DNA from: Helicobacteraceae bacterium
GTDB lineage: Bacteria > Campylobacterota > Campylobacteria > Campylobacterales > Sulfurimonadaceae
DNA length: 35,061 nt
Direction of reading: 5' to 3'
Assembly: GCA_026988515.1 (NCBI GenBank)
Contig: JALSLA010000077.1
Location: forward strand, 1-35,061
This document shows, piece after piece, positions 268-35,061 of the stretch. Within the stretch, counting starts at the first letter, position 1. Each line of letters opens with the position of its first letter. Under the pieces are notes generated by a model, which was given only the letters and a program-made list of their open reading frames with translations, was not told where the DNA came from and searched no databases. A program made the translations under genes and the position numbers.

Positions 268-279
268 TTTACATGTAAA
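268..279. repeat. TTTACATGTAAA palindrome copy (extended perfect palindrome GAAATTTACATGTAAATTTC, 264-283), intergenic between the two tRNAs
   Basis: Exact 12-mer match. Confidence 0.95.
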
Positions 280-285
280 TTTCTG

Positions 286-373
286 TGGCAGACAGGAAGA
301 GATTCGAACTCTCGGTAGGTTGCCCTACACACGCGTTCCAGGCGTGCGCCTTCGACCACTCGGCCACCTGTCT
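286..373 (-). tRNA. tRNA-Ser (anticodon GGA)
   Basis: Reverse complement AGACAGGTGGCCGAGTGGTCGAAGGCGCACGCCTGGAACGCGTGTGTAGGGCAACCTACCGAGAGTTCGAATCTCTTCCTGTCTGCCA: long variable arm, anticodon loop CTGGAAC, encoded CCA. Confidence 0.97.
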
Positions 374-508
374 ACATTTTGGAAATGAGATTATAAGACA
401 AAACGCCTCTAAAAGCAAGCCAGAAGAGACTTTTTTTGATATTTTAGCAATACACTTACAATCACTACACAATCATTATGTATAATATAACACAAACAGG
501 AGAGGACC

Positions 509-1414
509 ATGAAGCATCTGCAATACATATTGATGGCACTATTGTTGTTGCTCCTTAGTGCTTGTTTTGATTTTAATGATGATAAAGCAACACGTAATAC
601 GCTCAATGTGATTAATATGAAAGTCGGTGCGCCGACCACGATGCATGTTTTTTTTGAAGAGCCGTATGATGCCAACGGTGATTATTACCATAATCTCTTT
701 TTCGATGATTGGAGCGATACGTTTATGTACGATCCGTATCCCTATATCTTTTTCCCCTACGGGGATACTCTGGATGATGAACAGAATCTGTTCTTTGGTG
801 CCAAGCACCGGTATGATTCGCCAACGCACTATACATCTATTTCATACACGTATGATTACCATGACGCAAAGCAGTATTATCTCAACATTACGGACCGCTC
901 GTTTTTAATGATTGAGACATACGGGAGTGATGATATTAAGGTTCCCGCAAACAGTCTTCGCAATCGTGAACAGAGTCTGGTCATCTTTGGAAGCAGCAGC
1001 CGCGACACCTCGTTACGAATCCCTTTGGACGTACGGGTATTTACCAATGTAAAAGCGACCCAAAGAGATCGTATAAGTATTAATGTTATTAACGCACTGC
1101 CTACAGAAGCCGGTACTGATATACTGCCGGCACTACAGTATGCATCAACCCTTCATCTCGAGATCAACGGGGTGCGTGTCAGTGAGTCGGTTGCCTATCG
1201 GGAAAATGACCGTTTCGAGATTGTCGGCGGAAGCGAGACGCCGGAGAGTATTGAATTTACATTGGTGCTGAGCAATGGTGCCGCACCGACATGGAGTAAG
1301 AGACTGCAGCATGGACATACGTACAATGTCATTGTGGGACACGGACAAAACCGCCTCTCTTCCGAACCGACACTCTTTGTGTACGATGTTACGCCTGCAA
1401 GAGATAACACTTAA
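509..1414 (+). CDS. putative lipoprotein of unknown function
   Basis: ORF with N-terminal hydrophobic stretch and lipobox (LLLLLLSAC); AGGAGAGG Shine-Dalgarno-like sequence upstream. Confidence 0.8.
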   Translation: MKHLQYILMALLLLLLSACFDFNDDKATRNTLNVINMKVGAPTTMHVFFEEPYDANGDYYHNLFFDDWSDTFMYDPYPYIFFPYGDTLDDEQNLFFGAKHRYDSPTHYTSISYTYDYHDAKQYYLNITDRSFLMIETYGSDDIKVPANSLRNREQSLVIFGSSSRDTSLRIPLDVRVFTNVKATQRDRISINVINALPTEAGTDILPALQYASTLHLEINGVRVSESVAYRENDRFEIVGGSETPESIEFTLVLSNGAAPTWSKRLQHGHTYNVIVGHGQNRLSSEPTLFVYDVTPARDNT

Positions 1415-1994
1415 GAATAGCATAGAGGCGCAGTTGTGCTTCGCTGAGGTCTCTTCCAAATGTCATGATTCCTTCGCGATGCCCTTTCATAACAAAGGCA
1501 TTGTGCGCAAACGGGTTACGGTTATTGTAAAGTGCGGCAATCTCGGTGACCATCTTCTTGGTGCCGTAGGGCGCGGTCGTGGCTAAATAGTGCTGCGTTT
1601 GCATATAGTGCCACAGCGGAAGAGAATGGACATGAATAACAGCTGAAATTTCGGGGTCTATTGTGTAAATCATTGCATGACTCAATGCTTCACTACTGGG
1701 GCGATACACCCCTTTAGAGTAGACGGTAAACGTCGTGAAATCGTAATGATGAACATAGCTGTAGTGTGCTTCTTGGAGCGAAGGCAAGGCACCGGTTTGT
1801 GTTGCGGTAATAAAAAATCCTGACGATGCAGTGTCACGTACGGAGAGATTTCCGTAACCGATGCCCTTCTTCTCACCGATGAGACCCAATGCCGTGAGAT
1901 GGGCGCGCACCTGTTCGGTTGCGGCATAGTCTGAAAATTTTACACAATGGCTTTGTGAATGCTCAATGGCATATTTAACGACACCTTCATCCAT
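1389..1994 (-). CDS. class II aldolase/adducin family protein
   Basis: Motifs GNLSVRD, AVIHVHS and KGHREGIMTFGRDLSEA; last gene of the mtnK-mtnA-aldolase operon. Confidence 0.85.
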   Translation of the reverse strand: MDEGVVKYAIEHSQSHCVKFSDYAATEQVRAHLTALGLIGEKKGIGYGNLSVRDTASSGFFITATQTGALPSLQEAHYSYVHHYDFTTFTVYSKGVYRPSSEALSHAMIYTIDPEISAVIHVHSLPLWHYMQTQHYLATTAPYGTKKMVTEIAALYNNRNPFAHNAFVMKGHREGIMTFGRDLSEAQLRLYAILKCYLLQA

Positions 1995-3058
1995 TACCGG
2001 AGCGCCTTAATGGCAGTTTCGTTGGCTGGAATGATACCGGCTTCGGTAATCAGCCCGTCAATGAGGCGTGCAGGAGTGATGTCAAAAGCATAGTTGGCAC
2101 CCTGTGCATCGGGTGGAGTGATGCGGATATTTTGGACAATACCCTCGGCGTCGATACCTCGCATAAAATGGATCTCATCATCACTACGCATCTCAATTTC
2201 GATCTCGTCAATACCGTGACAGCATTGGAAGTCAAAGGTACTCAGCGGCAACGCCACATAGAAAGGAACGTTGTTGTCTTGAGCTGCCAATGCCTTGAGA
2301 TAGGTTCCGATTTTGTTAGCAACATCACCGCAACGACTGACTCTATCGGCGCCGGTGATGACCAGATCGACCTTGCCGTGTTGCATGAGATGTCCGCCGG
2401 TATTGTCGGCAATAATAGTGTGTGCAATGCCGCTTTGCTGCAGCTCCCATGCGGTAAGATTGGCCCCTTGGTTGCGAGGACGGGTCTCATCGACCCAGAC
2501 ATGAACATGAATGCCGCGCCGCTGCGCTTCATAAATAGGTGCCAAGGCACTGCCGTTGTCAATAATTGCCAGCCATCCTGCATTGCAGTGTGTGAGTATA
2601 TGGATACACTCCAACTGTTTTTGGTGCATGATGCGTTCGATGAGGTCGCATCCGAGGGTACCGATAAGCTCACTGCGTGCGACATCCTCATCGCATATTG
2701 CCATGGCGTTGGCTTTGGCATCTTCGATGAGGTGCTGACTTGAGCGGAGTCGATCCAACATGCGATCTACCGCCCACATCAGATTGACGGCAGTAGGACG
2801 TGACGAACGAATGTGTCGTGCTTCATGTGCAAGTCGATCATAGTCGTGAGGAAACTCCCGTGCCAACAGATAGATACCCCATGCGGCGACATTGCCGATA
2901 ACACCGGCACCGCGTATGGTCATGTCGCCAATGGCTGCGACAACGTCAGCACCACGCTTGAGTGTGCGAATACGTTTTTCAAAAGGGAGAAAACGCTGGT
3001 CGAGCACCTCCAGATCACCATGAGCGTTAAGCCAAAACGGACGGTAATTACCCTGCAT
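1994..3058 (-). CDS. mtnA: S-methyl-5-thioribose-1-phosphate isomerase (MtnA family)
   Basis: Motifs TIRGAGVIGN and ITGADRVSRCGDVANKIGTYLKALAA typical of MtnA/eIF2B-like isomerases. Confidence 0.92.
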   Translation of the reverse strand: MQGNYRPFWLNAHGDLEVLDQRFLPFEKRIRTLKRGADVVAAIGDMTIRGAGVIGNVAAWGIYLLAREFPHDYDRLAHEARHIRSSRPTAVNLMWAVDRMLDRLRSSQHLIEDAKANAMAICDEDVARSELIGTLGCDLIERIMHQKQLECIHILTHCNAGWLAIIDNGSALAPIYEAQRRGIHVHVWVDETRPRNQGANLTAWELQQSGIAHTIIADNTGGHLMQHGKVDLVITGADRVSRCGDVANKIGTYLKALAAQDNNVPFYVALPLSTFDFQCCHGIDEIEIEMRSDDEIHFMRGIDAEGIVQNIRITPPDAQGANYAFDITPARLIDGLITEAGIIPANETAIKALR

Positions 3059-4256
3059 GGGAAGCCTTAATAAGCATGATTATATCTTCAGAGTTTTTTA
3101 CATGTAAATACGCGTTTATAAAACGTCTGCCAAGTGCAACGGCATGCCGATTGGCGTATTCGCGCAAACGGGCATCGGCAATACCGCGAATATCTTCAAC
3201 GCCGGCAATACCGAATTGACGCCGCAAGATTTCGCAGCCGGCAAAACCGATGCTCTCTTGAAAAAGTTGAAGCATGTAAGCGTCTTGATACTGCTTGAGA
3301 AGTTCCGGTGAAGCAAATCCTTGAGCCATTAATGCATTGTGCGGTGTCGCCTGCCATAAGGTGCGAAACGCAGTCTCAAACGTACTCCAAAATGTTTGGA
3401 TGCTTGAAAGAATCCACTGCTGATATTGGGTGTTGCCGTGAACACCGTGTGCGACATATGACATGACAAAATTGGCAATCAGGGTACCGATGTCAAACCC
3501 CATTGGACCCATAAAAGCGAACTCGGAATCGATGACATACGTTGTATGACGGTTGAGCATAATGGAGCCGGTATGCAGATCACCGTGAAGCAGGGCATCG
3601 CTGCGATTCATAAAGAGATGCTTCAGCGTGAGAATATGCATTTTTAACGGAATGTCAGCGGCAATTTCATGGGCCAGATCAGTCAGTTCGGGCAGATCCG
3701 CATTGGTCTCATGTTCCATAAACGGTGCGGTAAAAACAAAATCTTCGGTGAGCTTGCAGAGTTCTTTGTTGCCGATAAACTGAGCAATCAAATGATGATG
3801 CTCATGACTGCTCAACGAGAGGGTAGATGTTTTAAAAAGGGTATGGGCAAGAAACGTTCCTAGGTGTGTGGCGGCATGAGGGTAGATATTGGCGTTTATC
3901 ATGCCTTTGCGCATCAACGCATGATCTGCGAGGTACTCCATAATAAGCACACTCATGCACTCATCGCTATAATATATTGTAGGTATGTGGTCGCAGAGTG
4001 TGGCAAAATGTTTTAAGGAGCGAATCTCATAGATCATCCGCTCCCCGGCGCATCGCAGGTAAGGAACGGCTTGTTTGACAATCAGTTGCCTGCTGCACTC
4101 TTGGGTGGAGGTGACCAAAAAGACAAAATTCAAATTGCCGTCGCCGATCTCTTCAATACGCAGCGGTGCCCCATTGAAAAAAAGAGCAATGTCGCGCAAC
4201 GACAAGAGGTAGTGCTCTATGTTCGATGTCGTTAAAATCTTATAGGACATAAGCAC
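3048..4256 (-). CDS. mtnK: S-methyl-5-thioribose kinase (MtnK-like; aminoglycoside phosphotransferase fold)
   Basis: EIGDGNLNFVFLV N-terminal motif, LLHGDLHTGSIM catalytic motif, VIDSEFAFMGPMGFDIG; overlaps the mtnA start. Confidence 0.88.
   Translation of the reverse strand: MLMSYKILTTSNIEHYLLSLRDIALFFNGAPLRIEEIGDGNLNFVFLVTSTQECSRQLIVKQAVPYLRCAGERMIYEIRSLKHFATLCDHIPTIYYSDECMSVLIMEYLADHALMRKGMINANIYPHAATHLGTFLAHTLFKTSTLSLSSHEHHHLIAQFIGNKELCKLTEDFVFTAPFMEHETNADLPELTDLAHEIAADIPLKMHILTLKHLFMNRSDALLHGDLHTGSIMLNRHTTYVIDSEFAFMGPMGFDIGTLIANFVMSYVAHGVHGNTQYQQWILSSIQTFWSTFETAFRTLWQATPHNALMAQGFASPELLKQYQDAYMLQLFQESIGFAGCEILRRQFGIAGVEDIRGIADARLREYANRHAVALGRRFINAYLHVKNSEDIIMLIKASHAG
3097..3108. repeat. 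TTTACATGTAAA palindrome copy inside mtnK 3' end (encodes LHVK)
   Basis: Exact 12-mer match. Confidence 0.95.
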
Positions 4257-4293
4257 CTCGCTGTTTCAGATCTGCTAATTATATCATGTTGCA

Positions 4294-5256
4294 TCAGTGG
4301 TGTTGTTTGAGGATCAAATAGATAAAAAAGGGACCTCCCAAAAGTGCCGTAACCAGACCGATAGGCAGATCGCTGCCTATGCTGATACTGCGAGCAATTC
4401 CGTCACAGACAACTAAAAAAAGCCCCCCGACAAGAAACGTGGGCAGGATTAACCGAGCAATATTTTTTTGATAAAGCCTTCGTACAATATGTGGAACAAT
4501 CAAGCCGACAAACCCGATAGGACCGGTTAAACTCACCAGCACACCGATGCTTAATGACGCGACTAGCAACAGCTGTAAGCGCAGGCGTTCGCTGTGTACT
4601 CCTTTTAAGCGGGCTTGCTCTTCGGAGAGGGCAAACAGATGCAACTCATACCGTTTTACATGTAAAACACTCAAGAGTAAGAGTGTGGTTATGCCGACAA
4701 TCAAAGGGTATGTATAGCCGATGGTTGCGAGTGAGCCCATTGTATAGCGTATCAGCATTTGGGTCTCCATGGCACTGCTTAAGAAATAGAGTATCATCAG
4801 TGCCGCCGTATAGAAAAATGACAGGGCAATACCCAAAAGCAATAAGGAGTTGTTGCGGTCATACTGGAGGTAGCGGCTCAAATAGAGCAGTAAGAGTACT
4901 GTCAATACGGCACCTGAAAAACCAAACAGCGATACGGCACCGATGCCTAAAAACACGGACCCCAAACCCAGCTTCATACCGATACCCGCTCCCAAGATGG
5001 CACCGCTGGAGATACCCAGTGTATAGGGGGTCATGAGCGCATTGCGAAAAAGTGTTTGAAAGAGTAAGCCGGAGAGGGCTAACGTCGCACCCGCCATAAA
5101 AGCCAACAGCAGACGCGGCAGACGCAGTTCAAAAAAGATCCGGTGACTGAGCGTTCCAGATGTCATAATATCCGTAAGGGTCAGTGAAACCGTACCGACA
5201 AAAGGCGATAACGCAGCCATTGCGAGCAAGATGCCCAAGAGTGTTGTTTTACTCAT
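4294..5256 (-). CDS. ABC transporter permease, FecCD/BtuC family
   Basis: Multi-TM protein with FecCD motifs (AGATLALSGLLFQTLFRNALMTPYTLGISSGAILGAGIG, GPIGFVGLIVPHIVRRL, DGIARSI...DLPIGLVTALLGGPFFIYLI); start set at MSKTTLLG rather than the longer ORF start. Confidence 0.93.
   Translation of the reverse strand: MSKTTLLGILLAMAALSPFVGTVSLTLTDIMTSGTLSHRIFFELRLPRLLLAFMAGATLALSGLLFQTLFRNALMTPYTLGISSGAILGAGIGMKLGLGSVFLGIGAVSLFGFSGAVLTVLLLLYLSRYLQYDRNNSLLLLGIALSFFYTAALMILYFLSSAMETQMLIRYTMGSLATIGYTYPLIVGITTLLLLSVLHVKRYELHLFALSEEQARLKGVHSERLRLQLLLVASLSIGVLVSLTGPIGFVGLIVPHIVRRLYQKNIARLILPTFLVGGLFLVVCDGIARSISIGSDLPIGLVTALLGGPFFIYLILKQHH
4655..4666. repeat. TTTACATGTAAA palindrome copy inside the FecCD permease gene (encodes LHVK; extended GTTTTACATGTAAAAC)
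   Basis: Exact 12-mer match. Confidence 0.95.
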
Positions 5257-6771: not shown

Positions 6772-8691
6772 TTAATAGCGTACTTTCAATCCGGCGATAA
6801 AGGTGGTTGAAGCATTTAAAGGGTAGATGGCGTCATCGTGAATCCATAAACCGTTTTTCTGATCAAACAGATTATTGATCTTGCCGAAAAATTCGTAATG
6901 CCCTTGCAGATAGCTTAGTGTTATATCGGTGGAGCGATAGGCCTGCTGTTCTTGAACAAAACGGTTGTTAAAGTCATTGGCGGCATAGGCACTGGAGCGA
7001 TGGGTATGCAGCAAAGAGAGCGTCATATGATCGTTGGGAAGGTATGAAAGCATCACCTTGGCCGTGTGGTTAGGCACACCGGGAAGTTCATTGTTGCTGT
7101 AGTTTTCTGCGCTTTCAATCTCTTTGTCAATGATTGCTTTAACATAGTTGTAGTTGATACTGACATGAAAGGTATCGGTTACTAAAAATTTGTCGTAAAG
7201 ATCCAGACCGTATTTGTAAGAGGCATCGATATTGGTATTTTTGGCATTGACAAACGTCGGATCGGCATGATAGTAGATTTCGTCGTCCACATTCACATAA
7301 AAAAGAGAGACTTTAAATTTGTTTTGCGAAGTGATGGCATTGTAACCCACTGTCAATGTATCCGTTGTCATGGGTTTAATAAAGCCGTTAAAAGTGCCGC
7401 CGAAGTTAAAAAAGCGGTCAATGTCAGGGGCTTGGTAGGCATGCGAAAACGCGGCAAAAACGGAGCGTTCAGCACTGAGACGATAGTTGTACCCAAGCTC
7501 AATACCGTGCAGCGTCTCATCATCACGCAGGCGCTTGTCGGCGTCATGATAGCTGTAGTCCACTGTTTCATAGCGGTAGCCAGCTTTTAAGGTATGGTCT
7601 CCCAGACGGTATTGCGTCAGGAGAAATGCGGCACGGTTCTCTTTTGAGGTGTTGTTGCCGTAGCCGTCACGTTCACCGTTAAAGAGATTCAATCCGACGG
7701 TGGCACTCAGGGCATCGTTACGGTAGTCGAGTGTGGCGGCAACGCTGTCATAGGTATATTGTGCCACACTGCTGTAGGTCAGATAACGGGACTCTTTATC
7801 TTCACGAGAACCGGTGACGGAGAGCTGCAGGGCATCGGTAATATCATAAGCCAAAGAGAGAGCGTAGGCATCGCTGTCATACGCTTGTTTTGAACTGCTT
7901 GAGCTTCCTGCTTGAGAGGGATCTTCTAAAAATTCATTGAGTGTTAAGGGGCCGCCGTAAGTACTTTTGAGACGGGTTGTCTGATAGTCCACAGAGAGTT
8001 CCAGCGCATCGGTAGGTGTCAGTGACAGTGTAATACCACCGTTTTTAAGCGCTTGTTTGGCGCGGTTCTTTTGTGCGTCAACAGTGCGTACTCCGTCACT
8101 GAGATAGCGTTCGGCATGGGCCGTGATGCTGTAGAGATCATCAGCATAACCGGCATAGAGCGAGCCGTCAAAGGTGTTGTTGTTACCGGCATAAAGCCCC
8201 AATTCCAAGACATTTTCCTGTTTGGTCGTAATGTAAATAACACCGGCATTGGCACCGTCGCCAGCGCGAACAATACCGCCGCCTTTAATGATCTCAATAC
8301 GACCGATACTCGAAGGGCTGATGGCACTGAGCAGTTGCGGCACCGCATCGATATTATTGAGACGCCGTCCGTTGAGAATGACTACAATATTTTCATAGCC
8401 GTCTCCGATACCGTAGCCGTGCATATCGATCTTTTGTGTAAACGGATTGCCGTAAGAGGGCATGGCAACAAGAGACGTTTGTTGATTTAAAAATTCATAC
8501 ACGTTTTGTACGTGAGCCTTTTCAATATCATCTTGCGTGTAGATTTCAACAGCATCGGCAGCGCTGAGCTCATCGTTATGCAGCGGTGAAGAGTAGACTT
8601 CAAGAGGCTGTAGCGTGTAGGTTGCGGCATGGGCAAGCGAGTGAATGGCCAACGAGGCAATTAACGAAAGCAGTAACGGTTTTTGGATCAT
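6772..8691 (-). CDS. TonB-dependent outer membrane receptor (BtuB-like)
   Basis: Signal peptide, plug domain (IGRIEIIKGGGIVRAGDGANAGVIYITTK), C-terminal beta strand ending in aromatic RY; heads the btuFDC-like operon. Confidence 0.9.
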   Translation of the reverse strand: MIQKPLLLSLIASLAIHSLAHAATYTLQPLEVYSSPLHNDELSAADAVEIYTQDDIEKAHVQNVYEFLNQQTSLVAMPSYGNPFTQKIDMHGYGIGDGYENIVVILNGRRLNNIDAVPQLLSAISPSSIGRIEIIKGGGIVRAGDGANAGVIYITTKQENVLELGLYAGNNNTFDGSLYAGYADDLYSITAHAERYLSDGVRTVDAQKNRAKQALKNGGITLSLTPTDALELSVDYQTTRLKSTYGGPLTLNEFLEDPSQAGSSSSSKQAYDSDAYALSLAYDITDALQLSVTGSREDKESRYLTYSSVAQYTYDSVAATLDYRNDALSATVGLNLFNGERDGYGNNTSKENRAAFLLTQYRLGDHTLKAGYRYETVDYSYHDADKRLRDDETLHGIELGYNYRLSAERSVFAAFSHAYQAPDIDRFFNFGGTFNGFIKPMTTDTLTVGYNAITSQNKFKVSLFYVNVDDEIYYHADPTFVNAKNTNIDASYKYGLDLYDKFLVTDTFHVSINYNYVKAIIDKEIESAENYSNNELPGVPNHTAKVMLSYLPNDHMTLSLLHTHRSSAYAANDFNNRFVQEQQAYRSTDITLSYLQGHYEFFGKINNLFDQKNGLWIHDDAIYPLNASTTFIAGLKVRY

Positions 8692-11891: not shown

Positions 11892-11903
11892 TTTACATGT
11901 AGA
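11892..11903. repeat. near-exact palindrome copy TTTACATGTAgA, intergenic
   Basis: 11/12 match to TTTACATGTAAA. Confidence 0.8.
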
Positions 11904-13801: not shown

Positions 13802-14337
13802 AAACAAAGGTTCTGATTTTACACGGTTGGCACGGTTCAGAGGCACCGCATTGGCAAGACTGGCTCTATCATCAGTTGCGCGAAGCGGGATACGAGGTAG
13901 CATTTCCTCAGTTTAGCGACAACATGCATCCCAGTAAAGAGGTTTGGCTTCGTGAAGCACAAGCGGCTTACAAAGAGATACAGCCTACTGTTGTGATTGC
14001 CCACTCTATGGGAAATACTCTCTGGTTTCATCTGTGCAATGAAGGCCTTGTGGGCTCTGTGGAACGGTTGCTTTTGGTGGCGCCGCCTCGTGATTTAAGT
14101 GACTATGATGATGTAGCCGAATTTTTTCCTGTTGAAGTTAAAGGATTTTGTGCCGATGAGGTTTTAATGGTGAGCTCAACGGATGATCCGTATATGAGCA
14201 AAGCGGAAGCCGCTGAATTTGCTCGAGCACACAGTATCAAGCAAAAAGTAGTCCAAAACGGCGGTCACATTAACAGTGAAAGTGGTTTTGGCCCTTGGCC
14301 CTGGGTATTGGAGTGGGTAAAAAAGGGTAGCGGATGA
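13798..14337 (+). CDS. alpha/beta hydrolase, RBBP9/YdeN family
   Basis: [18 protein letters not shown] and [12 protein letters not shown] (GHSLG-type nucleophile), C-terminal GGHIN. Confidence 0.9.
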
Positions 14338-15311
14338 TACTGAGTATTGAGAGCAGTTGTGATGACAGCTCCATAGCCGTGACCGAGATAGCAACAGGAA
14401 AACTGCTGTATCACAAAAAAATATCGCAAGAGTTGGAACATGCACAATACGGTGGAGTTGTACCGGAACTGGCGTCGCGTCTGCATGTTGAGGCGCTGCC
14501 TAAAATTTTGCAGGAGTGCCGACCCTATTTTCCCTCGTTGAAAGCAGTTGCCGTGACCAATGAACCGGGACTTGGCGTCACGTTGGTAGAGGGGGTGATG
14601 ATGGCAAAAGCGTTGGCTGTTGCGCTTTCGATTCCACTGATTGGCGTCAACCATCTCATAGGGCATATCTATTCGCTTTTTATTGAAAAAGAGGCGCGTT
14701 TGCCATTAACCGTGTTGCTTGTTTCCGGAGGCCATACGCAACTGATGGAAGTTGAGGGTATCGACACTGTAAAAACTGTAGCGCGTACTATGGATGACAG
14801 CTTTGGCGAGAGTTTTGACAAGGTGGCTAAAATGATGCATTTAGGCTACCCCGGCGGTCCTGTTATTGAAACATTGGCAAAAAACGGTGATGCATTTCGT
14901 TATAATTTTACGGTGCCGTTGCACCAATCACCAAAGATTGCTTTTAGCTATTCGGGCTTGAAAAATGCGGTACGGCTTGCCGTTGAAGCGGCCAATGAAA
15001 AGGAGTATGCCGATATTGCGGCATCATTTCAACGTGTGGCAACCGCTCACCTGATACAAAAGCTGAAAAAATATTTTAAAGCGCACCCGCCCCGTTGCTT
15101 TGCTATTGTCGGAGGAGCCAGTGCAAACCGCTATTTGCGCGAACAGGTTCAAGAGATGTTAAAGCCTTTCGGTGCTACACTTCTATTGTCTGAGTTGCGT
15201 TATTGTTCCGATAATGCAGCCATGATAGGGCGCGCTGCTATTGAGATGTATCACAAAAAAGCATGGAGTCGGGTCGAAAATTTACATGTAAATGCACAAT
15301 CAACTCTTTAG
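14334..15311 (+). CDS. tsaD: tRNA N6-adenosine threonylcarbamoyltransferase TsaD
   Basis: [47 protein letters not shown]. Confidence 0.96.
15281..15292. repeat. TTTACATGTAAA palindrome copy near the tsaD 3' end (encodes LHVN)
   Basis: Exact 12-mer match. Confidence 0.95.
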
Positions 15312-20268: not shown

Positions 20269-21132
20269 TTGAAAAATATGGTGATTGCACACTCTCCGGA
20301 TGCTGATGATATTTTCATGTATTACGCCATAAAGTTTGGTTGGATTACAATGAAAGGGGTACAGTTTGATAATCGCGCACTCGATATAGAGACGCTTAAT
20401 GAGGAAGCGTTAAAGGGTACGTATGATATCACCGCTATCAGTTTTGCCTTGTATCCGCATATTAAAGAGGAGTATGCGCTTTTAAAAACTGCCGTCAGTT
20501 TCGGAGAGGGTTACGGTCCCAAGCTGATTAAACGCAAAGGTATGCGACTGAAGCGACACTTTAGTGTAGCATTGAGCGGAAAGTATACGACCAATGCGAT
20601 GCTTTTTCGTATGGCCTATCCCGAAGCGCGCATAACCTATATGAATTTTTTAGAGATTGAAGAAGCAATTGTAACAGGACGCGTTGATGCAGGCGTTTTG
20701 ATTCATGAGAGTATTTTAACATTTCACGACGATCTGGAAGTTGAGCGTGAGATGTGGGATATTTGGCAAGAACTTGCCGGCAGTGATGTGCCGCTGCCGC
20801 TTGGGGGCATGGCATTGCGACGCTCCCTGCCGCTTACCAAAGCCATAGCGTATGAACAGTTGTTAATAGATGCGGTGACCATCGCGCGCGCGCACAAAGA
20901 GCGGCTTTCGTCAATGTTAATGGAGCGGAATTTGGTACGGATTGATGCAGCAACGCTTGAAACCTATTTGGAACTGTATGCCAACGATGACTCTATTGCA
21001 TTGAGTGACATCCAGCTACATGCGATTAACAGACTTTTTGAATTGGGGCATGAGCATGGGTTTTATGACGAATGTATCGATATTAACGATTATCTTATTC
21101 CCAATGAGTATGGTGAGTTAAGGAGAGGCTAA
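20269..21132 (+). CDS. mqnD: MqnD-like 1,4-dihydroxy-6-naphthoate synthase (futalosine menaquinone pathway)
   Basis: IAHSPDADDIFMYYAI N-terminus, GPKLIKRK, DAGVLIHESILTF; TTG start. Confidence 0.82.
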   Translation: MKNMVIAHSPDADDIFMYYAIKFGWITMKGVQFDNRALDIETLNEEALKGTYDITAISFALYPHIKEEYALLKTAVSFGEGYGPKLIKRKGMRLKRHFSVALSGKYTTNAMLFRMAYPEARITYMNFLEIEEAIVTGRVDAGVLIHESILTFHDDLEVEREMWDIWQELAGSDVPLPLGGMALRRSLPLTKAIAYEQLLIDAVTIARAHKERLSSMLMERNLVRIDAATLETYLELYANDDSIALSDIQLHAINRLFELGHEHGFYDECIDINDYLIPNEYGELRRG

Positions 21133-21398
21133 TGGAATCAACACTAATCAGTTTGGGGGTAGAGACCTTTAAAATTGCGTTGGAACTTGCGCTTCCGGGT
21201 CTTTTGGTCGGGATGTTTCTGGGGCTTGCGGTGAGTATTTTTCAGGCTACAACACAGATTAATGAGATGACGCTGAGTTTTATTCCTAAAATTATCGGTG
21301 TCGTCATTGTTATTATCTTAACCATGCCGTGGATGTTGAACAGCATGAATGACTTTGCAACGAAAGTGTTTAACATGATTCCGTCGTTTGTGCAATGA
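21132..21398 (+). CDS. fliQ: flagellar export protein FliQ
   Basis: 88 aa, two TM helices, LLVGMFLGLAVSIFQATTQINEMTLSFIPKI. Confidence 0.96.
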   Translation: MESTLISLGVETFKIALELALPGLLVGMFLGLAVSIFQATTQINEMTLSFIPKIIGVVIVIILTMPWMLNSMNDFATKVFNMIPSFVQ

Positions 21399-24451: not shown

Positions 24452-24775
24452 CTAAATGCTCCGATTGGCAAACTGGTTGAGTTTGTCTTTGACATGTTGA
24501 TCGGCCATATCGAAACTCCATTCGGGTTCCCAGACCACCTCTGCTTTGCAGGAAGCGGCGTTTGTATGCTTCATGACGGCCTCTTCAACCCACTGTATCA
24601 TCATCTGATGCAAGGGGCAGGCACGTGTTGAGAGTGTCATGGTGACATGAACATTATTCTCATCATCAATGACAGCGTCGTAAATAAGCCCCATCTCCAC
24701 CAAATTAAAACCGACTTCCGGGTCAATGACCGTACTAATGGCCTGAAAGACCTCTTCTTTGGTAACGTTATTCAT
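24452..24775 (-). CDS. DUF59/MIP18 family metal-sulfur cluster assembly protein
   Basis: VIDPEVGFNLVEMGLIYDAVID...VTMTLSTRACPLHQMM motif of the DUF59 family. Confidence 0.9.
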   Translation of the reverse strand: MNNVTKEEVFQAISTVIDPEVGFNLVEMGLIYDAVIDDENNVHVTMTLSTRACPLHQMMIQWVEEAVMKHTNAASCKAEVVWEPEWSFDMADQHVKDKLNQFANRSI

Positions 24776-26458: not shown

Positions 26459-27613
26459 TTAAATGGTTTCAATACGTAATAATTTGGTTTTTCCTACCAT
26501 AAGATCGATACTCATGACAATCCGCTTGAAAACGCTCTCTTGGCGGTACTGTAAATTATGTTTTTGACAGATCTCTTTGGTGATGGGTTGCATTCTCTGG
26601 TAAAAACTCTGCGGCATGTTGGGAAAGAGATGGTGCTCAATCTGGTAATTTAAAAATCCGTGTAAAAAATCGATAAAATCCGAACCGGTATGGTAGTTGA
26701 CACTTCCCATAATTTGACGCAGATAAAACTCTCCTTGGCTTTGGTGCGGTTCGCTGAACATGTAAATGTCTTCTGCAGAGTGGTTGGGAACAATCACTAA
26801 AAAAGAGTGCAGGTTGGCAAAAAATTCAGCAAGCAGAAAAATGATGAGCGTTCCTGTGACTGCGCTCCAGCCAAAAGGTAAAAACAGTAGCGGAATGAGA
26901 ATAAATTTAATGAAGGCATACGGCAACATATAGCTTTTCCAAAGTTCAAAACCGTTTTTGGTAAACGGGTTGTATTCATACGAACGTACTTCGGGCTCTT
27001 TACGTTTACGACGCTCTTTATTTTCTAAAATCAGCAGGGTGTTGGGTGCGTAGTAGGTAAATTTCCAGGTTCCGGCAAAAGCGTAAATAATAATATAACG
27101 CAGCCACATCGGCGTGTTGGACTGAATGAGCCACTGCAGATTTTTTTCGACATTATCCGGATCCTCATGTTCGCCGAGATGGTAGTGGTGCATAATATTG
27201 TGTTCATACTCCCATGCTTCGGGTTTTATCCAGTCCAACCAGTGCCAATAGCGCCGCCATCCCCGTGCATAACCGGCTTTGGTGTAGTGGTAGGGAATGC
27301 CGGGAACTTTGTCATAGGCACCGTGTAAAATAGGATGGGTTACGTTGGCCCAGCGTGAAACGTTCCCAATACCCAGCAACAGTGCCGCTACCAGTGCCGT
27401 TACCCAAAATGCCAAACCGCTCAGGCCAAAATAGGCAATGACAACAGTGAGAATAAATCCCGATGCGGTGCACATTCTGCCCCAACGTTCCAACTTTAAA
27501 AGATGCTGGTAGTCTTCCCAGGTCGGGTCGCCAATGGTTGCTTTAATGGTTTCAATATCGCGTTGAAGCTGCTCTTTGTCGATGTCGTGGTAGGGTGTGT
27601 AAGATTGTTGCAC
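26459..27613 (-). CDS. membrane fatty acid desaturase family protein
   Basis: His boxes HPILHG, HNIMHHYHLGEHED and QIEHHLFP with TM segments. Confidence 0.9.
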   Translation of the reverse strand: MQQSYTPYHDIDKEQLQRDIETIKATIGDPTWEDYQHLLKLERWGRMCTASGFILTVVIAYFGLSGLAFWVTALVAALLLGIGNVSRWANVTHPILHGAYDKVPGIPYHYTKAGYARGWRRYWHWLDWIKPEAWEYEHNIMHHYHLGEHEDPDNVEKNLQWLIQSNTPMWLRYIIIYAFAGTWKFTYYAPNTLLILENKERRKRKEPEVRSYEYNPFTKNGFELWKSYMLPYAFIKFILIPLLFLPFGWSAVTGTLIIFLLAEFFANLHSFLVIVPNHSAEDIYMFSEPHQSQGEFYLRQIMGSVNYHTGSDFIDFLHGFLNYQIEHHLFPNMPQSFYQRMQPITKEICQKHNLQYRQESVFKRIVMSIDLMVGKTKLLRIETI

Positions 27614-27678
27614 GCTAAAAGCCCTTTATCTATAGAAAATGGTGAAATAAAAACGGAATTGTATAGTAAAAAAACTTG

Positions 27679-27690: not shown

Positions 27691-29328
27691 TTACGAAATA
27701 AGCATCATCAGTAAAATACCGTTAAGTCCTAAAAGAAGAAAAAATGCCGTTTTGTAAAATTTTAACGGGTCACGTTCAAGCAACGGGGCATCTTTTTTGT
27801 AAAACGGTTTGACGTTTTCGGGTGATTTTAACTCGTAAAAAAACTCCGAATAGTGCTGATAGCGGTTGTTCGGATCGACAGCGATTGTACGTAAAATAAT
27901 AGCGTCAAACCAGTCGGGAATATTTTTGTTGTAGTGACTCGGCGGCTTGGGTGTTTTAAACGTAGGGGTCTGAAACGGCTCAATCTCTCCATAAGGAAAC
28001 TTTCCGGTGAGTGCCCAATAGAGGGTTACGCCGATGGAAAACAGTTCGGTCGATTCATTAATATTGCCGCCGCTAAAGCGCTCCGGTGCCAGATAGCTCG
28101 GTGTTCCGGCACGGCTGTCGGTGGAGAAAATTTCGACTATGGAGCCGAAGTCCACCATTTTAAAGACGGTTCCTGCCGAATCTGCTTCACGATAGACAAT
28201 GATGTTTTCGGGCTTAATATCACCATGCACCAATCCTAAATGCAGGAGGTGGGCTTCGGCTTTATGCAGAAATTTTGCCAGTGCAATGGCGTTATCGACG
28301 GAGAGATGTTTGTCGCCCAAAAATTCAATCAGGTTATTCCCTTCAATCAATTCCATAAGGTAGTAGCGTACGGTACGTTTTTGCGGTACCCATGCTTTTC
28401 CGAAGGAGCGGTGGTTGATCTGTTTGGCATACCATGCTTCGCGGACGAACTCGTCCAGATCATGTGCATCATCGGCGCTCATTGGAAACTTCATGACCAG
28501 CATGGTCTCTTTTTTACGGACTTTCCAGATACGTTCATGCTGCATCATCGGTTCAATCAGCTCGTAGCCGTCGATGAGGTCTCCTTTTTTCGGCGATTCG
28601 GGAATGGGGAGATTAAGATTTTTGAGTGCACATATTTGACTGAGACTTTCAACGGTAAAGATCTGCATGGAGGCGTCGTCGCGCTCATGATCTTTATGGC
28701 CTTTGGTAATGGCATTGACAATGAGTTTGGCGCTGAGTCCTTTGCAGAGCTGTTCATGCAGTGTCGAGGTGTCGGTAAGGTTATAGACTCCGTCACTGCA
28801 AAGAACGAGACGATCACCGACGGCTATGGTAGTGACGGTAACGGCAGGGTCAATATTTTCACTCAAACCGCAGGCTTGCGTGAGGACGTGACTCATATCT
28901 TCTTCATCCATAACATGATCATCGCTCAACAGTTCCAGTGTGTCGTGATGCTGCAGATAGATATGTGAATCGCCCAAATTGAGTGTGTAGAGCTGATCGC
29001 CTTCAATCACGGCGACACAAAGCGTTGTCAGCAGCTCAATCTGCTCATACTGTGTCATGGACTCTTTAAAAAGAATGCGGTTAATGTGTTTGGTAAACGA
29101 GATAAGCGTCTGCTCAATGGTCCAGTTTGTCGGACGCGTTTTAAACTGGTCAATGAAAAACTTTACCGTCTGGCGCGCTGCGGCACCGCCACGTTTGGCA
29201 CTGCCGACACCGTCACACAGTACGGCGATGAGCAGCTCGTTGTCAATCAGCTCATACGCGCAGGCATCATCACCCTTGACATCGGCGGCTTTGGGAAGAA
29301 TAAATTCAGAAGCACGAACTTTTAGCAT
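27691..29328 (-). CDS. bifunctional PP2C-type phosphatase / Ser-Thr protein kinase with C-terminal TM
   Basis: PP2C motif LCDGVGSAKRGGAAA; kinase motifs GLVHGDIKPENIIVYR and MVDFGSI; C-terminal hydrophobic helix. Confidence 0.93.
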   Translation of the reverse strand: MLKVRASEFILPKAADVKGDDACAYELIDNELLIAVLCDGVGSAKRGGAAARQTVKFFIDQFKTRPTNWTIEQTLISFTKHINRILFKESMTQYEQIELLTTLCVAVIEGDQLYTLNLGDSHIYLQHHDTLELLSDDHVMDEEDMSHVLTQACGLSENIDPAVTVTTIAVGDRLVLCSDGVYNLTDTSTLHEQLCKGLSAKLIVNAITKGHKDHERDDASMQIFTVESLSQICALKNLNLPIPESPKKGDLIDGYELIEPMMQHERIWKVRKKETMLVMKFPMSADDAHDLDEFVREAWYAKQINHRSFGKAWVPQKRTVRYYLMELIEGNNLIEFLGDKHLSVDNAIALAKFLHKAEAHLLHLGLVHGDIKPENIIVYREADSAGTVFKMVDFGSIVEIFSTDSRAGTPSYLAPERFSGGNINESTELFSIGVTLYWALTGKFPYGEIEPFQTPTFKTPKPPSHYNKNIPDWFDAIILRTIAVDPNNRYQHYSEFFYELKSPENVKPFYKKDAPLLERDPLKFYKTAFFLLLGLNGILLMMLIS

Positions 29329-29746: not shown

Positions 29747-29783
29747 AGAGCCCGTGGCGGGACGAGCTTTTTAGTAAGAAGGA

Positions 29784-31064
29784 CTAAATGCGTCCGCCTG
29801 CAGCTGCACCCCATGTGGTTCTCCAGCGGGTTTTCACAAAGCTGATACCGGCAATGGCAATGAGAACGACTGCGGCAAAGATTAAAAAACCGGCTGTATA
29901 GCCGTCGAATGCACCTTTGGACCATCCGAGTGTCTTAATCAATGCGGTTCCGCCCAATCCACCGGCACACCCGACAATACCGGTCATAATACCGATATCT
30001 TTACCAAACCGTTGCGGTACGAGCTGAAAGACCGCGCCGTTTGCCATCCCCAGATTGGCCATAATTAAAAAGAGTACCAAAATAGCAACATAAAACGGTA
30101 ATTCAACGAGCGCGCTGGTGCTTACCAACAGTGCCACCATGCCGTAGAAAATGTAGAGCGATTTAATACCGCCCATTTTATCGGCAATCCCGCCGCCGAC
30201 AGGGCGAAGTACCGCACCGGCAAAAATACAGAGCGCGCCGAAGTAACCGGCAACGACTTTTACATTGCCTTCATCTAAAAAGTCTAGACCAAAAGCGCTC
30301 ATGTCAGCTTGGTACGTATTCATTAAATAGACTTTCATATAGCCCGCGAATCCGACAAATCCGCCAAAACTGATGGCATAAAACAAGGAGAACCACCACG
30401 TGTCTTTATCTTTGAGCAGTTTGCCGTAATCTTTGAGTTTTTTCGGGTTGGCCTGATAGACGGACTCCGGTGCATCTTTGGCAATAAACGCATAGGCGAC
30501 AAAGGTTACGATTGCCATGACCGCACCGACGAGAAATACGGCATCCCAGCCCCAAAGTTCGGCAATTTTCGGTGCAAACAAGAAGTCAATAACGACACCG
30601 ATATTTCCCGCACCTGCAATGCCCAGAACAACGCCTTGGAGTTTTGGCGGATACCACTGCCCTGCCTGCGGCAGTGCCACGGCAAAAGAGGCCCCGGCAA
30701 ACCCAAGGCCGAGGGCTACGATCAACAGGGCATTGTAGGTAATGTTTTCACCCATCAAATAGGCGGTCAATAATGAGGCAATAACCACCGACTGTGCCAA
30801 AAGTGCCGTCATTTTAGGACCGAGCTTATCGACTCCAAATCCCAACACAATCCGCAAGATGGCACCCGATAAAATAGGTAACGAGAGCAGCGTTGCCTTT
30901 TCTCCTGCTGTCATTAAATGACCGTTTAGCGCCAATGCCTCGGTAATTTCCGTACTTAACGGTCCGAGCATTGTCCAGACCATAAAACTCACATCGAAAT
31001 ATAAAAAAGCCATGAACAGCGTCGGTGCGTGTCCTTCACCTTTTAAATCTTTAAATCCTGCCAT
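29784..31064 (-). CDS. NarK-type nitrate/nitrite MFS transporter
   Basis: 12-TM MFS protein; ILSGAILRIVLGFGVDKLGPK, GLGFAGASFAVALPQAGQWYPPKLQGVVLGIAGAGNIGV, GNANGA-like motif NLGMANGAVFQLVP. Confidence 0.9.
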   Translation of the reverse strand: MAGFKDLKGEGHAPTLFMAFLYFDVSFMVWTMLGPLSTEITEALALNGHLMTAGEKATLLSLPILSGAILRIVLGFGVDKLGPKMTALLAQSVVIASLLTAYLMGENITYNALLIVALGLGFAGASFAVALPQAGQWYPPKLQGVVLGIAGAGNIGVVIDFLFAPKIAELWGWDAVFLVGAVMAIVTFVAYAFIAKDAPESVYQANPKKLKDYGKLLKDKDTWWFSLFYAISFGGFVGFAGYMKVYLMNTYQADMSAFGLDFLDEGNVKVVAGYFGALCIFAGAVLRPVGGGIADKMGGIKSLYIFYGMVALLVSTSALVELPFYVAILVLFLIMANLGMANGAVFQLVPQRFGKDIGIMTGIVGCAGGLGGTALIKTLGWSKGAFDGYTAGFLIFAAVVLIAIAGISFVKTRWRTTWGAAAGGRI

Positions 31065-31158: not shown

Positions 31159-31186
31159 ATAAGTAAATCTTATGGCCTTGAAAATA

Positions 31187-31203: not shown

Positions 31204-31212
31204 ACAGAGGAA

Positions 31213-31224
31213 TTTACATGTAAA
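31213..31224. repeat. TTTACATGTAAA palindrome copy upstream of the FeS-DmsC fusion gene, overlapping a possible -35 box
   Basis: Exact 12-mer; TTTACA-N16-TATAAT (31213-31240) reads as a promoter. Confidence 0.95.
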
Positions 31225-31286
31225 ATGAACCCGCTATAATTTTGAATATAATAGTAACTAGTAATATAGTAAAGACGAGGAACAGC

Positions 31287-32867
31287 GTGCAAACAACCCC
31301 TTTAGAAAATTTTATAGAGTATAAAGCTCAAACCGGTATGCAGTGCGGGAATTACGCCATTGACGTACCGCCGCTTAATGCGGGTGAGCAGTACCGATTT
31401 CATTTTGATGCAACGGCATGTGTAGGGTGCCGTTGCTGTGAAGTGGCATGTAACGAGCAGAACAATAATCCGGCCGATGTCAAGTGGCGCCGTGTCGGTG
31501 AGATGGAGGGCGGTGTATTTCCTCAGGTGATGCAGCTGTTTAACTCAATGAGTTGTAATCACTGTATCGATCCGGCATGTCTTATTGGCTGTCCGACTGA
31601 GAGTTATATTAAAATAGAAGCTACCGGGATTGTCGTTCATGATGATGAAACATGCATCGGATGCCAGTACTGCACATGGAACTGTCCCTACGGTGTGCCG
31701 GTCTATCATGAAGAGCGTCATATTGTTACCAAGTGCCACATGTGTCATGAACGGCTTGATGTCGGGCAGTCTCCGGCATGCGTGCAGGCGTGTCCATCAG
31801 GTGCCATTATGATTGAGACGGTCAATATTGAGAGATGGACAAGTGAGCAGATGGATGATCAGGGCAATATGCCGTACCTTCCCGATGCACGTCTGACCAA
31901 TGCAACGACCCGCTATACGCTTCCTGAAAACTTGGAGGCGGTAATGGACGACATGATTGAACGTGATGAACACCTCTTGAAGCCTGCGCACTCAGAACTT
32001 CCGCTTGTTTTTATGACGGTATTGACCCAAGTGTCGCTGGGGGCATTTGCGGCACTGATGCTGGGGAATGTATTGAGTCTTTTTGGTTTAAGCACACCCA
32101 ATTGGGTCATGGCCGTTGCGGCACTGATTCCCGCCGCTTTGGGCTTGCCGCTTTCGGCACTGCATCTGGGACGGCCGCTTCGTGCTATGACGGCAATGAA
32201 AAACATTAAAACCTCATGGCTCTCCCGTGAAGCATTGGCATTGGGAATATTTGTCGGTATGATGACTCTCAATGTTCTTTGGTATGCCATAGGCATACCC
32301 AAAGGGTTACATGTAATATTTGAATTATTGACTTTGGGCGTAGGTGTGTACGGTATTTATGCGCAGTCCATGATTTATCGTATTGCGGCGCGTCCCTCAT
32401 GGAATCGTATGACCACAAACCTGAAGTTTTTCGGTGTGGGATACGTCGGTTTTACTCTGATGGCTCTGGTCGCACTGATGCAGCATGTTGAGAGTGCGGT
32501 AACGCCACTGCTGGCAACGGCACTGGTAGCGGCGGCGGCACAGGCTTTTTTCAGTTATGAAGATCGTCGAACTTTGAAAAAGAATGGAGCGTATGCCTAC
32601 CAACTGCAACGCACCTTGCGTCTGTATCGTGAGTTGTTTTCACGACAGGTAACAATACGTGCGGTTATGTTTGTTGTCGGTGCCTTGCTGATGCCGTTGC
32701 TGGTGCTTGTTTTAGCGGGTGCCGGTGCACATACTGCTGCGGTTGCGGTGCTGATTTTGAGTATTGTATTAAGTATGGGGAGTGAGTTGGTTGACCGCTT
32801 TTTATTTTATGCAACTGTGGTACCCTTAGGGATGGCAGGTTCATTTTTTGTAGGAAAACAGCGATGA
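31287..32867 (+). CDS. fusion of four-cluster ferredoxin subunit (DmsB/NrfC-like) and DmsC-like membrane anchor
   Basis: CVGCRCCEVACNEQ, CIDPACLIGCP, CIGCQYCTWNCPYG, CHMCHERLDVGQSPACVQACP; then TM region with LHLGRPLRAMTAMKNIKTSWLSREAL; GTG start after GAGGAA preferred over TTG 31242. Confidence 0.9.
   Translation: MQTTPLENFIEYKAQTGMQCGNYAIDVPPLNAGEQYRFHFDATACVGCRCCEVACNEQNNNPADVKWRRVGEMEGGVFPQVMQLFNSMSCNHCIDPACLIGCPTESYIKIEATGIVVHDDETCIGCQYCTWNCPYGVPVYHEERHIVTKCHMCHERLDVGQSPACVQACPSGAIMIETVNIERWTSEQMDDQGNMPYLPDARLTNATTRYTLPENLEAVMDDMIERDEHLLKPAHSELPLVFMTVLTQVSLGAFAALMLGNVLSLFGLSTPNWVMAVAALIPAALGLPLSALHLGRPLRAMTAMKNIKTSWLSREALALGIFVGMMTLNVLWYAIGIPKGLHVIFELLTLGVGVYGIYAQSMIYRIAARPSWNRMTTNLKFFGVGYVGFTLMALVALMQHVESAVTPLLATALVAAAAQAFFSYEDRRTLKKNGAYAYQLQRTLRLYRELFSRQVTIRAVMFVVGALLMPLLVLVLAGAGAHTAAVAVLILSIVLSMGSELVDRFLFYATVVPLGMAGSFFVGKQR
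32306..32317. repeat. near-exact palindrome copy gTTACATGTAAt inside the FeS-DmsC fusion gene (encodes LHV)
   Basis: Core TTACATGTAA exact (32307-32316). Confidence 0.7.
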
Positions 32868-35061
32868 TAAAAACAGTAAAAAACTTTCTAGGTCTGGACA
32901 TTCAAGAAGCACGATACAAGCTGAGTAACGATCCGCAATTCGGCATGATCAGTGATGCAAAAAAACCCGATAAATGGGTCCTTTCTACCTGTGGATACTG
33001 CGGAGTGGGGTGCGGTCTGTATATTGGCGTCAAAAACGGTGAAGCACTCTATACCAAAGGCAACCCCAAACATGCCGTCAATATGGGTACGCTCTGCCCC
33101 AAAGGGCTCAGTGAGCATCAGCTCTTGAACTCTCCCGAGCGCATAGTGCATCCTCAAATACGTAACAACGGTGTGTTGCAAGATGCGAGTTGGGAAGATG
33201 CTTTCAAGAAGGTGAGTGCTACATTTAAACAGATTACCGATACTTACGGCTCCAAAGCGATCGGCATTATCTCAACAGGGCAGATGCTTACCGAAGAGTT
33301 TTATGCTTTAGGAAAGTTGGCACAGTTGGGATTGCGTACCAATAATTTTGACGGCAATACGACGTTGTGCATGGCTTCGGCAGTGATGGGCTACAAACAG
33401 TCATTGGGTTCTGATGGAGCGGTAGGCAGCTATGAAGACTTTGAAGAGGCTAACGTTATTGTGCTTATCGGTGCCAATATTGCCGACAATCATCCCATTT
33501 TAAAACTCCATATTGCCAAAAACAAAAAGAAGCCCAAAATTATTGTTATTGATCCCAGAGCTTCGAAGACATCACAGATGGCTGATCTGTTTGTACCGCT
33601 TCGGCCGCGTACCGATCTGGCGCTTCTCAATGGTTTGGCATACATTATTATTGAACAGGGATGGGAAAATCAGGATTACATTCAAGCCAATACCAACGGC
33701 TTTAAGGCACTGAAAAAATTTCTTCGGGATTACCCGCCGCAGGAGGTGGCCAATATTACCGGTATTGACGTGAAGACACTGTATGAGTTGGCACGTCAGT
33801 ATGCGTCACAAGAGGCGGTATTGACGGCATGGACTATGGGTGTGAACCAGTCTGCCATGGGAACCGATACGGTGAGTGCCATTATTAACCTGCACCTGCT
33901 CACCGGAAAAATCGGTACGCCCGGAAGTGGACCGTTTAGTATTACGGGTCAGTGCAATGCGATGGGAACACGCGAAAGCGGGTTTACCTCATCGCTTCCG
34001 GGATATCGCAACTTTGGTGACATGGAAGCGGCACGGGAGTATGCCGAGATTGTAAACATCCCCGTAGAGAGGGTTCCGACCGAACGCGGTTACAAATATG
34101 CCGAGATTATCGATGCGATTGATCGGGGTGAAATTAAAGCGTTATGGGTGGTGGCAACCAATCCGCTGGTTAGTTTTCCCGACCAGGAAAAGTTGCGTAA
34201 CACGTTGAAAAAGCTCGATATTTTGGTGGTGCAAGATGCTTTTATGTCCGATACCGCAGAGGTGGCCGATGTTCTCTTCGCTGCGGCGACATGGGGCGAG
34301 AAAGAAGGTACTTACACCAATTCGGAGCGACGGGTTAACCGTGCCAACAAAGCGGTAGAACCCCGTGGCACGGCAATGAGTGATTTTGATATTTTTCTTG
34401 AGTTTTCCAAATATTTTGAAGGTGTCAATGCGTTAATTTATCCAAACTGGAGTGCGCCTGTCGATGCCTTTAACGAGTGGAAAGAGGTAAGCCGCGGCAG
34501 ACTGTGCGACTATTCGGGAATTACCTATGATATGCTTGAGACACACGGCGGTATTCAGTGGCCGTGTAATGAGGAGCGACCCATGGGAACAAAACGGTTG
34601 TACGGTGAAGGAATGCCATTTCGAACTCCCGATGCTAAAGCCAATTTTACGACATCAGCGTGGTTTCCGATGCAAGAGGCGGTCTGTGCCGAATTTCCGC
34701 TTGTTTTAAATACCGGTCGTACCGTAGAACAGTGGCATACGCGCACCAAAACGCGAAGTATCGATATTTTAAATGATCTTGCCCCCGAAGCTTGGGTTGA
34801 CATCAACCCAAGCGATGCCGCGCTTTTACATGTAAAAAGCGGTGATCGTATTGCGCTCTCAAGCCCGCGCGGTAGAGTAGAGGACGTGGTCGTTAAAGTG
34901 ACACAAACCGTAGCACCCGGAACGGTTTTTGTACCGTTTCATTTTAATACGCAGTTGGTCAATCGTCTGACACAGACCGAAGTCTGCCCAAAATCGGGTG
35001 AGCCCAACTTTAAGCAGACGGCAATTCAGCTGCACTCTTTGAAAGTTCCTGAAGGGATTCG
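32864..35061 (+). CDS. NasA-like molybdopterin oxidoreductase (assimilatory-type nitrate reductase catalytic subunit), truncated by the window end
   Basis: CGYCGVGCGLYIG FeS motif, LCPKGLSEHQLLNSPER, MGVNQSAMGTDTVSAIINLHLLTGKIGTPGSGPFSITGQCNAMGTRESG, WGEKEGTYTNSERRV; open to window end; ATG overlaps the upstream TGA. Confidence 0.9.
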   Translation, partial: MIKTVKNFLGLDIQEARYKLSNDPQFGMISDAKKPDKWVLSTCGYCGVGCGLYIGVKNGEALYTKGNPKHAVNMGTLCPKGLSEHQLLNSPERIVHPQIRNNGVLQDASWEDAFKKVSATFKQITDTYGSKAIGIISTGQMLTEEFYALGKLAQLGLRTNNFDGNTTLCMASAVMGYKQSLGSDGAVGSYEDFEEANVIVLIGANIADNHPILKLHIAKNKKKPKIIVIDPRASKTSQMADLFVPLRPRTDLALLNGLAYIIIEQGWENQDYIQANTNGFKALKKFLRDYPPQEVANITGIDVKTLYELARQYASQEAVLTAWTMGVNQSAMGTDTVSAIINLHLLTGKIGTPGSGPFSITGQCNAMGTRESGFTSSLPGYRNFGDMEAAREYAEIVNIPVERVPTERGYKYAEIIDAIDRGEIKALWVVATNPLVSFPDQEKLRNTLKKLDILVVQDAFMSDTAEVADVLFAAATWGEKEGTYTNSERRVNRANKAVEPRGTAMSDFDIFLEFSKYFEGVNALIYPNWSAPVDAFNEWKEVSRGRLCDYSGITYDMLETHGGIQWPCNEERPMGTKRLYGEGMPFRTPDAKANFTTSAWFPMQEAVCAEFPLVLNTGRTVEQWHTRTKTRSIDILNDLAPEAWVDINPSDAALLHVKSGDRIALSSPRGRVEDVVVKVTQTVAPGTVFVPFHFNTQLVNRLTQTEVCPKSGEPNFKQTAIQLHSLKVPEGI
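34825..34836. repeat. TTTACATGTAAA palindrome copy inside the nasA-like gene (encodes LHVK)
   Basis: Exact 12-mer match. Confidence 0.95.

Follow-up and report, generated by a model that had tools for sequence, protein, structure and literature searches.

A highly iterated palindrome in Campylobacterota and its association with an orphan CATG-family methyltransferase

The cyanobacterial highly iterated palindrome (HIP) HIP1 was described in 1995, and the purpose of such palindromes has been a question since. A published model attributes both the creation and the restoration of HIP1 sites to biased repair (PMC4390886). Of the other systems that bear on the present work, iceA1/NlaIII and hpyIM have been published as CATG-specific, IceA1 being related to NlaIII (PMC4687069, PMC2749054), and in Campylobacter jejuni uptake is restricted to DNA that CtsM has methylated (PMC8468864). 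Here we describe a palindrome, TTTACATGTAAA, dispersed over a 35,061-nt stretch of DNA from a Helicobacteraceae bacterium (contig JALSLA010000077.1; the whole stretch is called the window below), which an earlier note on that DNA had singled out as extremely over-represented. It is probably the commonest form of a HIP whose 8-bp core, TACATGTA, is strict and whose A/T flanks are soft. An orphan methyltransferase of the CATG lineage would write TACATGTA and underlie the upkeep of the sites, and a mark of self DNA is a possible use of them. A search of an open-access full-text library turned up no earlier mention of this motif for these bacteria.

Abundance, core, and distribution of the palindrome

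The ten exact copies of TTTACATGTAAA reported for the window were all correctly placed (Table 1), as were three near copies, two of which (11892 and 29344) differ by one mismatch; the third (32306) contains the core at 32308. With at most one mismatch allowed, the 12 matches observed compare with a mean of 0.15 and a maximum of 2 in dinucleotide shuffles of the window. Over the whole 1.99-Mb genome (G000), TTTACATGTAAA occurs 226 times and its reversed control pattern (the same letters read backwards, which preserves the composition) once. Both results bear out the over-representation, and the enrichment extends well beyond the window, which itself has 10 copies per 35 kb versus about 4 expected from the genome average.

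The invariant unit is the 8-bp core, and the outer TT..AA is a soft preference differing between lineages. There are 675 copies of TACATGTA in G000 versus 29 of its control, and in a 434-kb sample of this genome 142 were found versus 9.3 expected from the trinucleotide composition. When compared with all other 8-bp palindromes, TACATGTA turned out to be the most over-represented one in both genomes sampled, G000 and G055; the latter is Sulfurospirillum diekertiae, whose second contig carries a copy of IS21 at 4188-4696, exactly where it lies in pSDCE1, a plasmid of strain ACSDCE. Variants with one mismatch inside the core are about as frequent as expected by chance, and variants of the outer T exceed expectation tens to hundreds of times. 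The flanks form lineage dialects (ATT-core-AAT in G000, CTT-core-AAG in G055), and the sequence common to the copies reaches no further than about 14 bp. Of the 20 ACATGT hexamers in the window, 13 lie within TACATGTA and 7, not about five as had been estimated by eye, lack the flanking T/A. The suggestion that maintenance extends to all 12 bp and is not limited to a shorter core was wrong in detail, the 8-bp core being the strict part. Spaced half-sites were looked for, and none were found. Any further palindromes in excess in these genomes are only weakly so, such as the milder CAATATTG (52 occurrences versus 13.5 expected in the G000 sample L016-L035 plus the window, and 27 versus about 12 in G055).

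Among 397 Campylobacterota genomes surveyed for the 12-mer, most have 0 to 3 copies. One family is rich in it, with 14 to 792 copies in genus g37 (relatives of Sulfurospirillum), 283 and 310 in two of the three g65 genomes, and 346 in one of the two g69 genomes; isolated rich genomes occur elsewhere (G370, 338 copies; G170, 86 copies), and the counts in the window's own genus are 226, 204, 151, and 130. The excess is thus found also in relatives within the genus and in the Sulfurospirillum group, and it is patchy across the phylum. Since the flanks vary, the 12-mer under-counts the sites: TACATGTA is present 1042 and 1768 times in G022 and G007, which have 41 and 27 copies of the 12-mer, respectively.

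With gene positions taken from a simple gene caller, about two-thirds of the sites lie within genes, evenly spread along them and mostly in the His-Val reading frame, and site density is 5 to 6 times greater between genes than within them. Divergent regions are not preferred, holding in G055 8 of the 75 intergenic sites on 10.8 of 47 kb. A promoter operator of a transcription regulator was rejected on the grounds of this location, the sites being mostly in genes and divergent promoters not being preferred, which agrees with the earlier statement that the motif is not the operator of one regulon. The density along the replication axis was determined on the complete G055 chromosome and was even, with 4 to 13 sites per 20 kb throughout and neither a trend nor an origin-terminus pattern. 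A role of the Noc/SlmA/MatP type was rejected on account of this evenness, and a nucleoid or chromosome-organisation protein of that type, one of the candidates put forward in the earlier note, is not supported because there is no such pattern. Compared with random placement that keeps the split between coding and intergenic DNA, counts per 20 kb are less variable in both G000 and G055 (about 2% of the simulations were as low), and the gaps between sites are more even in G000 only.

The methyltransferase gene and the fate of the sites

The palindrome sites are tracked by a D12-class methyltransferase (PF02086) of about 325-335 residues. In the window's genome its gene lies at G000:C24:39551-40528 on the minus strand and adjoins xseA/ubiE. 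The encoded enzyme matches PF02086 with an E value of 4.2e-47 and has the invariant DPPY and an N-terminal FAGSG motif (FxGxG type); no solved structure matched its profile by sequence. None of the tested neighbours of the G000 gene matched an endonuclease, and no ICEA was found within 1.5 kb of the gene in any site-rich genome tested. Because there is no adjacent IceA/NlaIII endonuclease, the methyltransferase is regarded as an orphan and not as a restriction system. Its relatives found in named genomes show 50-67% identity; judging by these and by general knowledge, the family of the window's bacterium is probably Sulfurimonadaceae. The Sulfurospirillum gene occupies a single inherited locus, flanked by the genes for a response regulator and for a protein like transglutaminase; in G186, G220, G246, and G385 these two neighbours are contiguous, with the methyltransferase absent between them. 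Clustering of sites around the gene, considered as a sign of autoregulation, is not general. Two other candidate partners were rejected. Nine site-rich genomes have no beta-class methyltransferase (PF01555), so that this class is not the general partner, and ComEC (PF03772) is uninformative because none of the 39 genomes tested lacks it.

Two relatives of the enzyme deserve separate mention. G246, which has a different methyltransferase relative, shows a relaxed dialect, GACATGTA, tolerating G as the outer core letter (19 copies versus 1.2 expected), beside TACATGTA (27 versus 0.65; L074, L228-L231). The gene of a plasmid-borne relative itself contains four TACATGTA, and another five cluster around a plasmid dinB/lexA pair (L323:1692-2732 and 20494-21355 on pSDCE1; L324:27938-28797 on pSDIE1).

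Beside relatives that adjoin PF05315 (ICEA), CATG is at 0.10 of expectation in nine strongly depleted loci pooled, the lowest value of the 16 four-base palindromes. Together with the published specificities, and independently of the motif, this depletion points to CATG at the centre of TACATGTA as what the family reads, and the orphan itself may share this specificity. The sign of the effect depends on the neighbouring gene. Six IceA-linked genomes show no excess of TACATGTA (0-2 copies, or 25 versus a control of 52 in G021), and five genomes with a tsaD-linked orphan have 99-848 copies versus 29-57 for the controls. Orphans directly upstream of tsaD, found in Sulfurimonas-type genomes, go with an excess of ACATGTA. 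At tsaD-linked orphan loci of this type (L245, L269, L282, L302, L305), GATC and GGCC are at 0.28 and 0.14 of expectation, respectively. Among 48 genomes tallied for co-occurrence, which were picked with their 12-mer counts known and are not a random sample, the gene is present in most of the enriched ones, and enrichment is absent beside IceA. The link between gene and sites is strong but incomplete.

Conservation of the sites between syntenic orthologs was determined with a 35-kb region of G055 as the reference and relatives at 76-83% identity. In seven Sulfurospirillum-group genomes with the methyltransferase gene, 65 of 83 sites were intact versus 20 expected from control 8-mers, while in the gene-less G186 and G220 (80-82% identity) only 2 of 26 were. 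In the window's genus the corresponding fractions were 5/9, 2/6, and 5/5, with control rates of 22-27%. Core variants with one mismatch numbered 34 versus 49.7 expected in genomes with the gene, i.e., there was no halo of near misses, and 51 versus 16.3 expected in the gene-less G385, G220, and G186, i.e., there was a halo of decay. The sites are real, maintained, and lineage-specific, and in Sulfurospirillum species without the gene at its usual place they are mostly lost or decaying.

The same alignments gave two further observations. At L042:17711, G243, which is 98% identical overall to G055, shares an almost identical non-site allele with G271 (L062, L064, and L065 aligned), which suggests recombination between species. 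At G055 reference position 27651 there is a site where relatives show a gap of 11 bp (L061-L071 aligned to L042/L060), so that insertion, and not point mutation, may be the origin of some sites.

Table 1. Copies of the palindrome in the window and their surroundings
Feature	Position	Strand	Context
TTTACATGTAAA	268..279	.	between tRNA-Ala (179-254) and tRNA-Ser (286-373)
TTTACATGTAAA	3097..3108	.	close to 3' end of methylthioribose kinase gene (3048-4256, -)
TTTACATGTAAA	4655..4666	.	within BtuC/FhuB-like ABC permease gene
TTTACATGTAAA	8719..8730	.	just upstream of TonB-dependent receptor gene (6772-8691, -); core kept in G001, G003
TTTACATGTAAA	10298..10309	.	within RqcH/fibronectin-binding-like gene; core kept in G001, G003
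near copy TTTACATGTAGA	11892..11903	.	core TACATGTA intact; intergenic
TTTACATGTAAA	15281..15292	.	close to 3' end of tsaD (14334-15311); core kept in G002, G007
TTTACATGTAAA	24431..24442	.	between convergent genes: ccoG (end 24387) and neighbour 24452-24775 (-)
TTTACATGTAAA	27679..27690	.	between genes 26459-27613 and 27691-29328 (both -); core kept in G001, G002, G003
near copy GTTACATGTAAA	29344..29355	.	core TACATGTA intact; upstream of phosphatase-kinase gene (27691-29328, -)
TTTACATGTAAA	31213..31224	.	between divergent narK-like gene (29784-31064, -) and ferredoxin-type gene (31242-32867, +); core kept in G001
near copy GTTACATGTAAT	32306..32317	.	core TACATGTA intact at 32308; within gene 31242-32867
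TTTACATGTAAA	34825..34836	.	within molybdopterin oxidoreductase gene (nitrate reductase / formate dehydrogenase alpha-like)

Among the window genes, the phosphatase-kinase gene encodes a PP2C-type phosphatase domain fused to a Ser/Thr kinase domain and adjoins NarK-like transporter and nitrate-reductase-like genes.

Possible functions and rival explanations

In the explanation that we favour, a D12-class orphan of the hpyIM/M.NlaIII lineage, descended from a restriction-modification system whose IceA/NlaIII-type endonuclease partner is absent, would methylate adenine (N6-methyladenine, m6A) at or within the TACATGTA core. As long as the enzyme is present, the sites would be under strong selection or active restoration, and after loss of the gene they would decay over no more divergence than is seen inside one genus. 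The marked sites would most likely serve to recognise self DNA in natural transformation, as CtsM sites do, which is a guess from analogy. Over-representation, the strict core, positional conservation, the neighbour-dependent sign, and absence of the gene at a fixed locus together with decay are direct observations; that the orphan methylates TACATGTA and that methylation is the reason for site upkeep is what we infer. The likeness to HIP1 and the link of an iterated palindrome to methylation, both raised in the earlier note, have gained ground, as a CATG-family orphan co-occurs with the sites and these decay in several relatives without it.

Three uses are left. The sites could mark self DNA for transformation, could be a tool or by-product of repair (the proposal made for HIP1), or could be bound in a methylation-sensitive way; we weakly favour the first of these. 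A bolder version, in which a CATG-family methyltransferase that had lost its endonuclease became the writer of a methylated self-recognition uptake sequence and the genomes were filled with TACATGTA by biased uptake, is tentative and may well be wrong; if true, a methylation-marked uptake sequence would account for HIPs of at least one class. The low density on part of the mobile plasmid pSulSP, with 4 TACATGTA versus 24.6 expected in its first 50 kb (L325:1-50000), fits the reading as a self-DNA mark, as if recently acquired DNA had yet to gain sites, while plasmid pSDCE1 is near the chromosomal density (14 versus 19.6 expected, not significant). The pSulSP stretch with organohalide and cobamide genes (L326) has 11 TACATGTA versus 24.6 expected.

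Several observations weigh against the favoured explanation. Ten of the tallied genomes are enriched although no intact family member was found in them (G170, G276, G204, G385, G220, G341, G401, G365, G354, and, weakly enriched, G186), and six carrying a relative that has no ICEA and no tsaD within 1.5 kb of it are unenriched (G104, G006, G058, G209, G360, and G106). G213 is enriched, yet a possible EcoRII-C-like endonuclease, at the Pfam cut-off, adjoins its methyltransferase. The gene-less G276 and G204 have no halo of decay (13 variants versus 12.2 expected), for which either very recent loss, a gene in an assembly gap, or another serving factor could account; a replacement gene at the locus was looked for, but G276 lacks the anchor neighbour and G204 has no trace of the gene beside it. 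Moreover, a CATG enzyme alone fails to account for eight bases, and not all CATG, being kept.

The excess could be a by-product of methylation-dependent repair or mutational bias, the sites being functionless, which we consider unlikely. There is the published HIP1 model (PMC4390886) as a precedent, departures are tolerated at the outer positions only, and sites in genes are evenly spread along them; however, their 5- to 6-fold rarity in coding relative to intergenic DNA means that coding constraint opposes them, they are spaced a little more evenly than random placement would give (most clearly in G000), and some site and non-site alleles of orthologs differ by several substitutions or by the 11-bp gap and not by single repairs. 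That the sites are instead held by a sequence-specific binder (a nucleoid, segregation, or global regulator), with the methyltransferase as a bystander or modulator, appears quite unlikely. The strict palindromic core with A/T flanks would suit a dimeric binder, and G276 and G204 are site-rich without decay, the methyltransferase not having been found there. Such a binder is at odds with the lack of an origin-terminus pattern and of a preference for divergent promoter regions; besides, the central CATG was independently found to be what the methyltransferase family reads, and absence of the gene coincides with decay in three genomes, which would be unexpected for a bystander.

We give little credence to a classical uptake sequence (of the DUS or USS type, i.e., DNA uptake sequence or uptake signal sequence) read by the competence machinery without methylation. 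The dispersed sites, the strict core, the lineage dialects in the flanks, the site-poor part of pSulSP, and the exchange of alleles between species visible at a site would all agree with it. ComEC, present in every genome tested, is equally present in site-free genomes and so does not discriminate; there is no near-miss halo, and the link to the CATG-family methyltransferase would be left unexplained. To our knowledge, classical uptake sequences are not palindromic. Finally, it is scarcely credible that a restriction target or the footprint of a mobile element is behind the repeats: a relative of the methyltransferase does belong to restriction systems, but restriction targets are depleted whereas these sites are enriched, and the copies share no sequence past about 14 bp and are conserved at orthologous positions.

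Comparison with known systems

The sites of Noc, SlmA, MatP, and ParB are likewise short strict palindromes on the chromosome; they either gather in one part of it or are missing from one part, whereas TACATGTA sites are even along it. The orphan belongs to the same PF02086 family as hpyIM/M.NlaIII, the partners of IceA1/NlaIII, aligns with them over the full length, and shares their DPPY motif. Unlike in those systems, IceA is missing beside the gene in site-rich genomes, where CATG, at 0.80-0.91 of expectation, shows no strong depletion and TACATGTA is enriched. CtsM of C. jejuni (PMC8468864), from the same phylum, is likewise an orphan adenine methyltransferase with a palindromic target, and DNA marked by it is accepted; its target, RAATTY, is unlike TACATGTA, for which an uptake role is a hypothesis.

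HIP1 (GCGATCGC; PMC4390886) is likewise an octameric palindrome with a genome-wide excess that is patchy between relatives and with variation at the outer positions only. It is linked to orphan methyltransferases that have their target within it, to which the present orphan would be the counterpart. The present palindrome comes from a different phylum, has a different sequence (with CATG at its centre), and goes with a different class of enzyme (D12 m6A, hpyIM lineage). Moreover, decay in close gene-less relatives and a reversed sign in restriction-linked ones could here be observed directly. Close species of a genus that can be cultured either have the palindrome, are losing it, or have lost it, which with exceptions follows a single removable gene, and restriction-linked cousins of that gene act oppositely on the same central sequence; both the cause and the purpose of the palindrome are thereby directly testable. 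We read it as a HIP-type system analogous to HIP1 and new for Campylobacterota.

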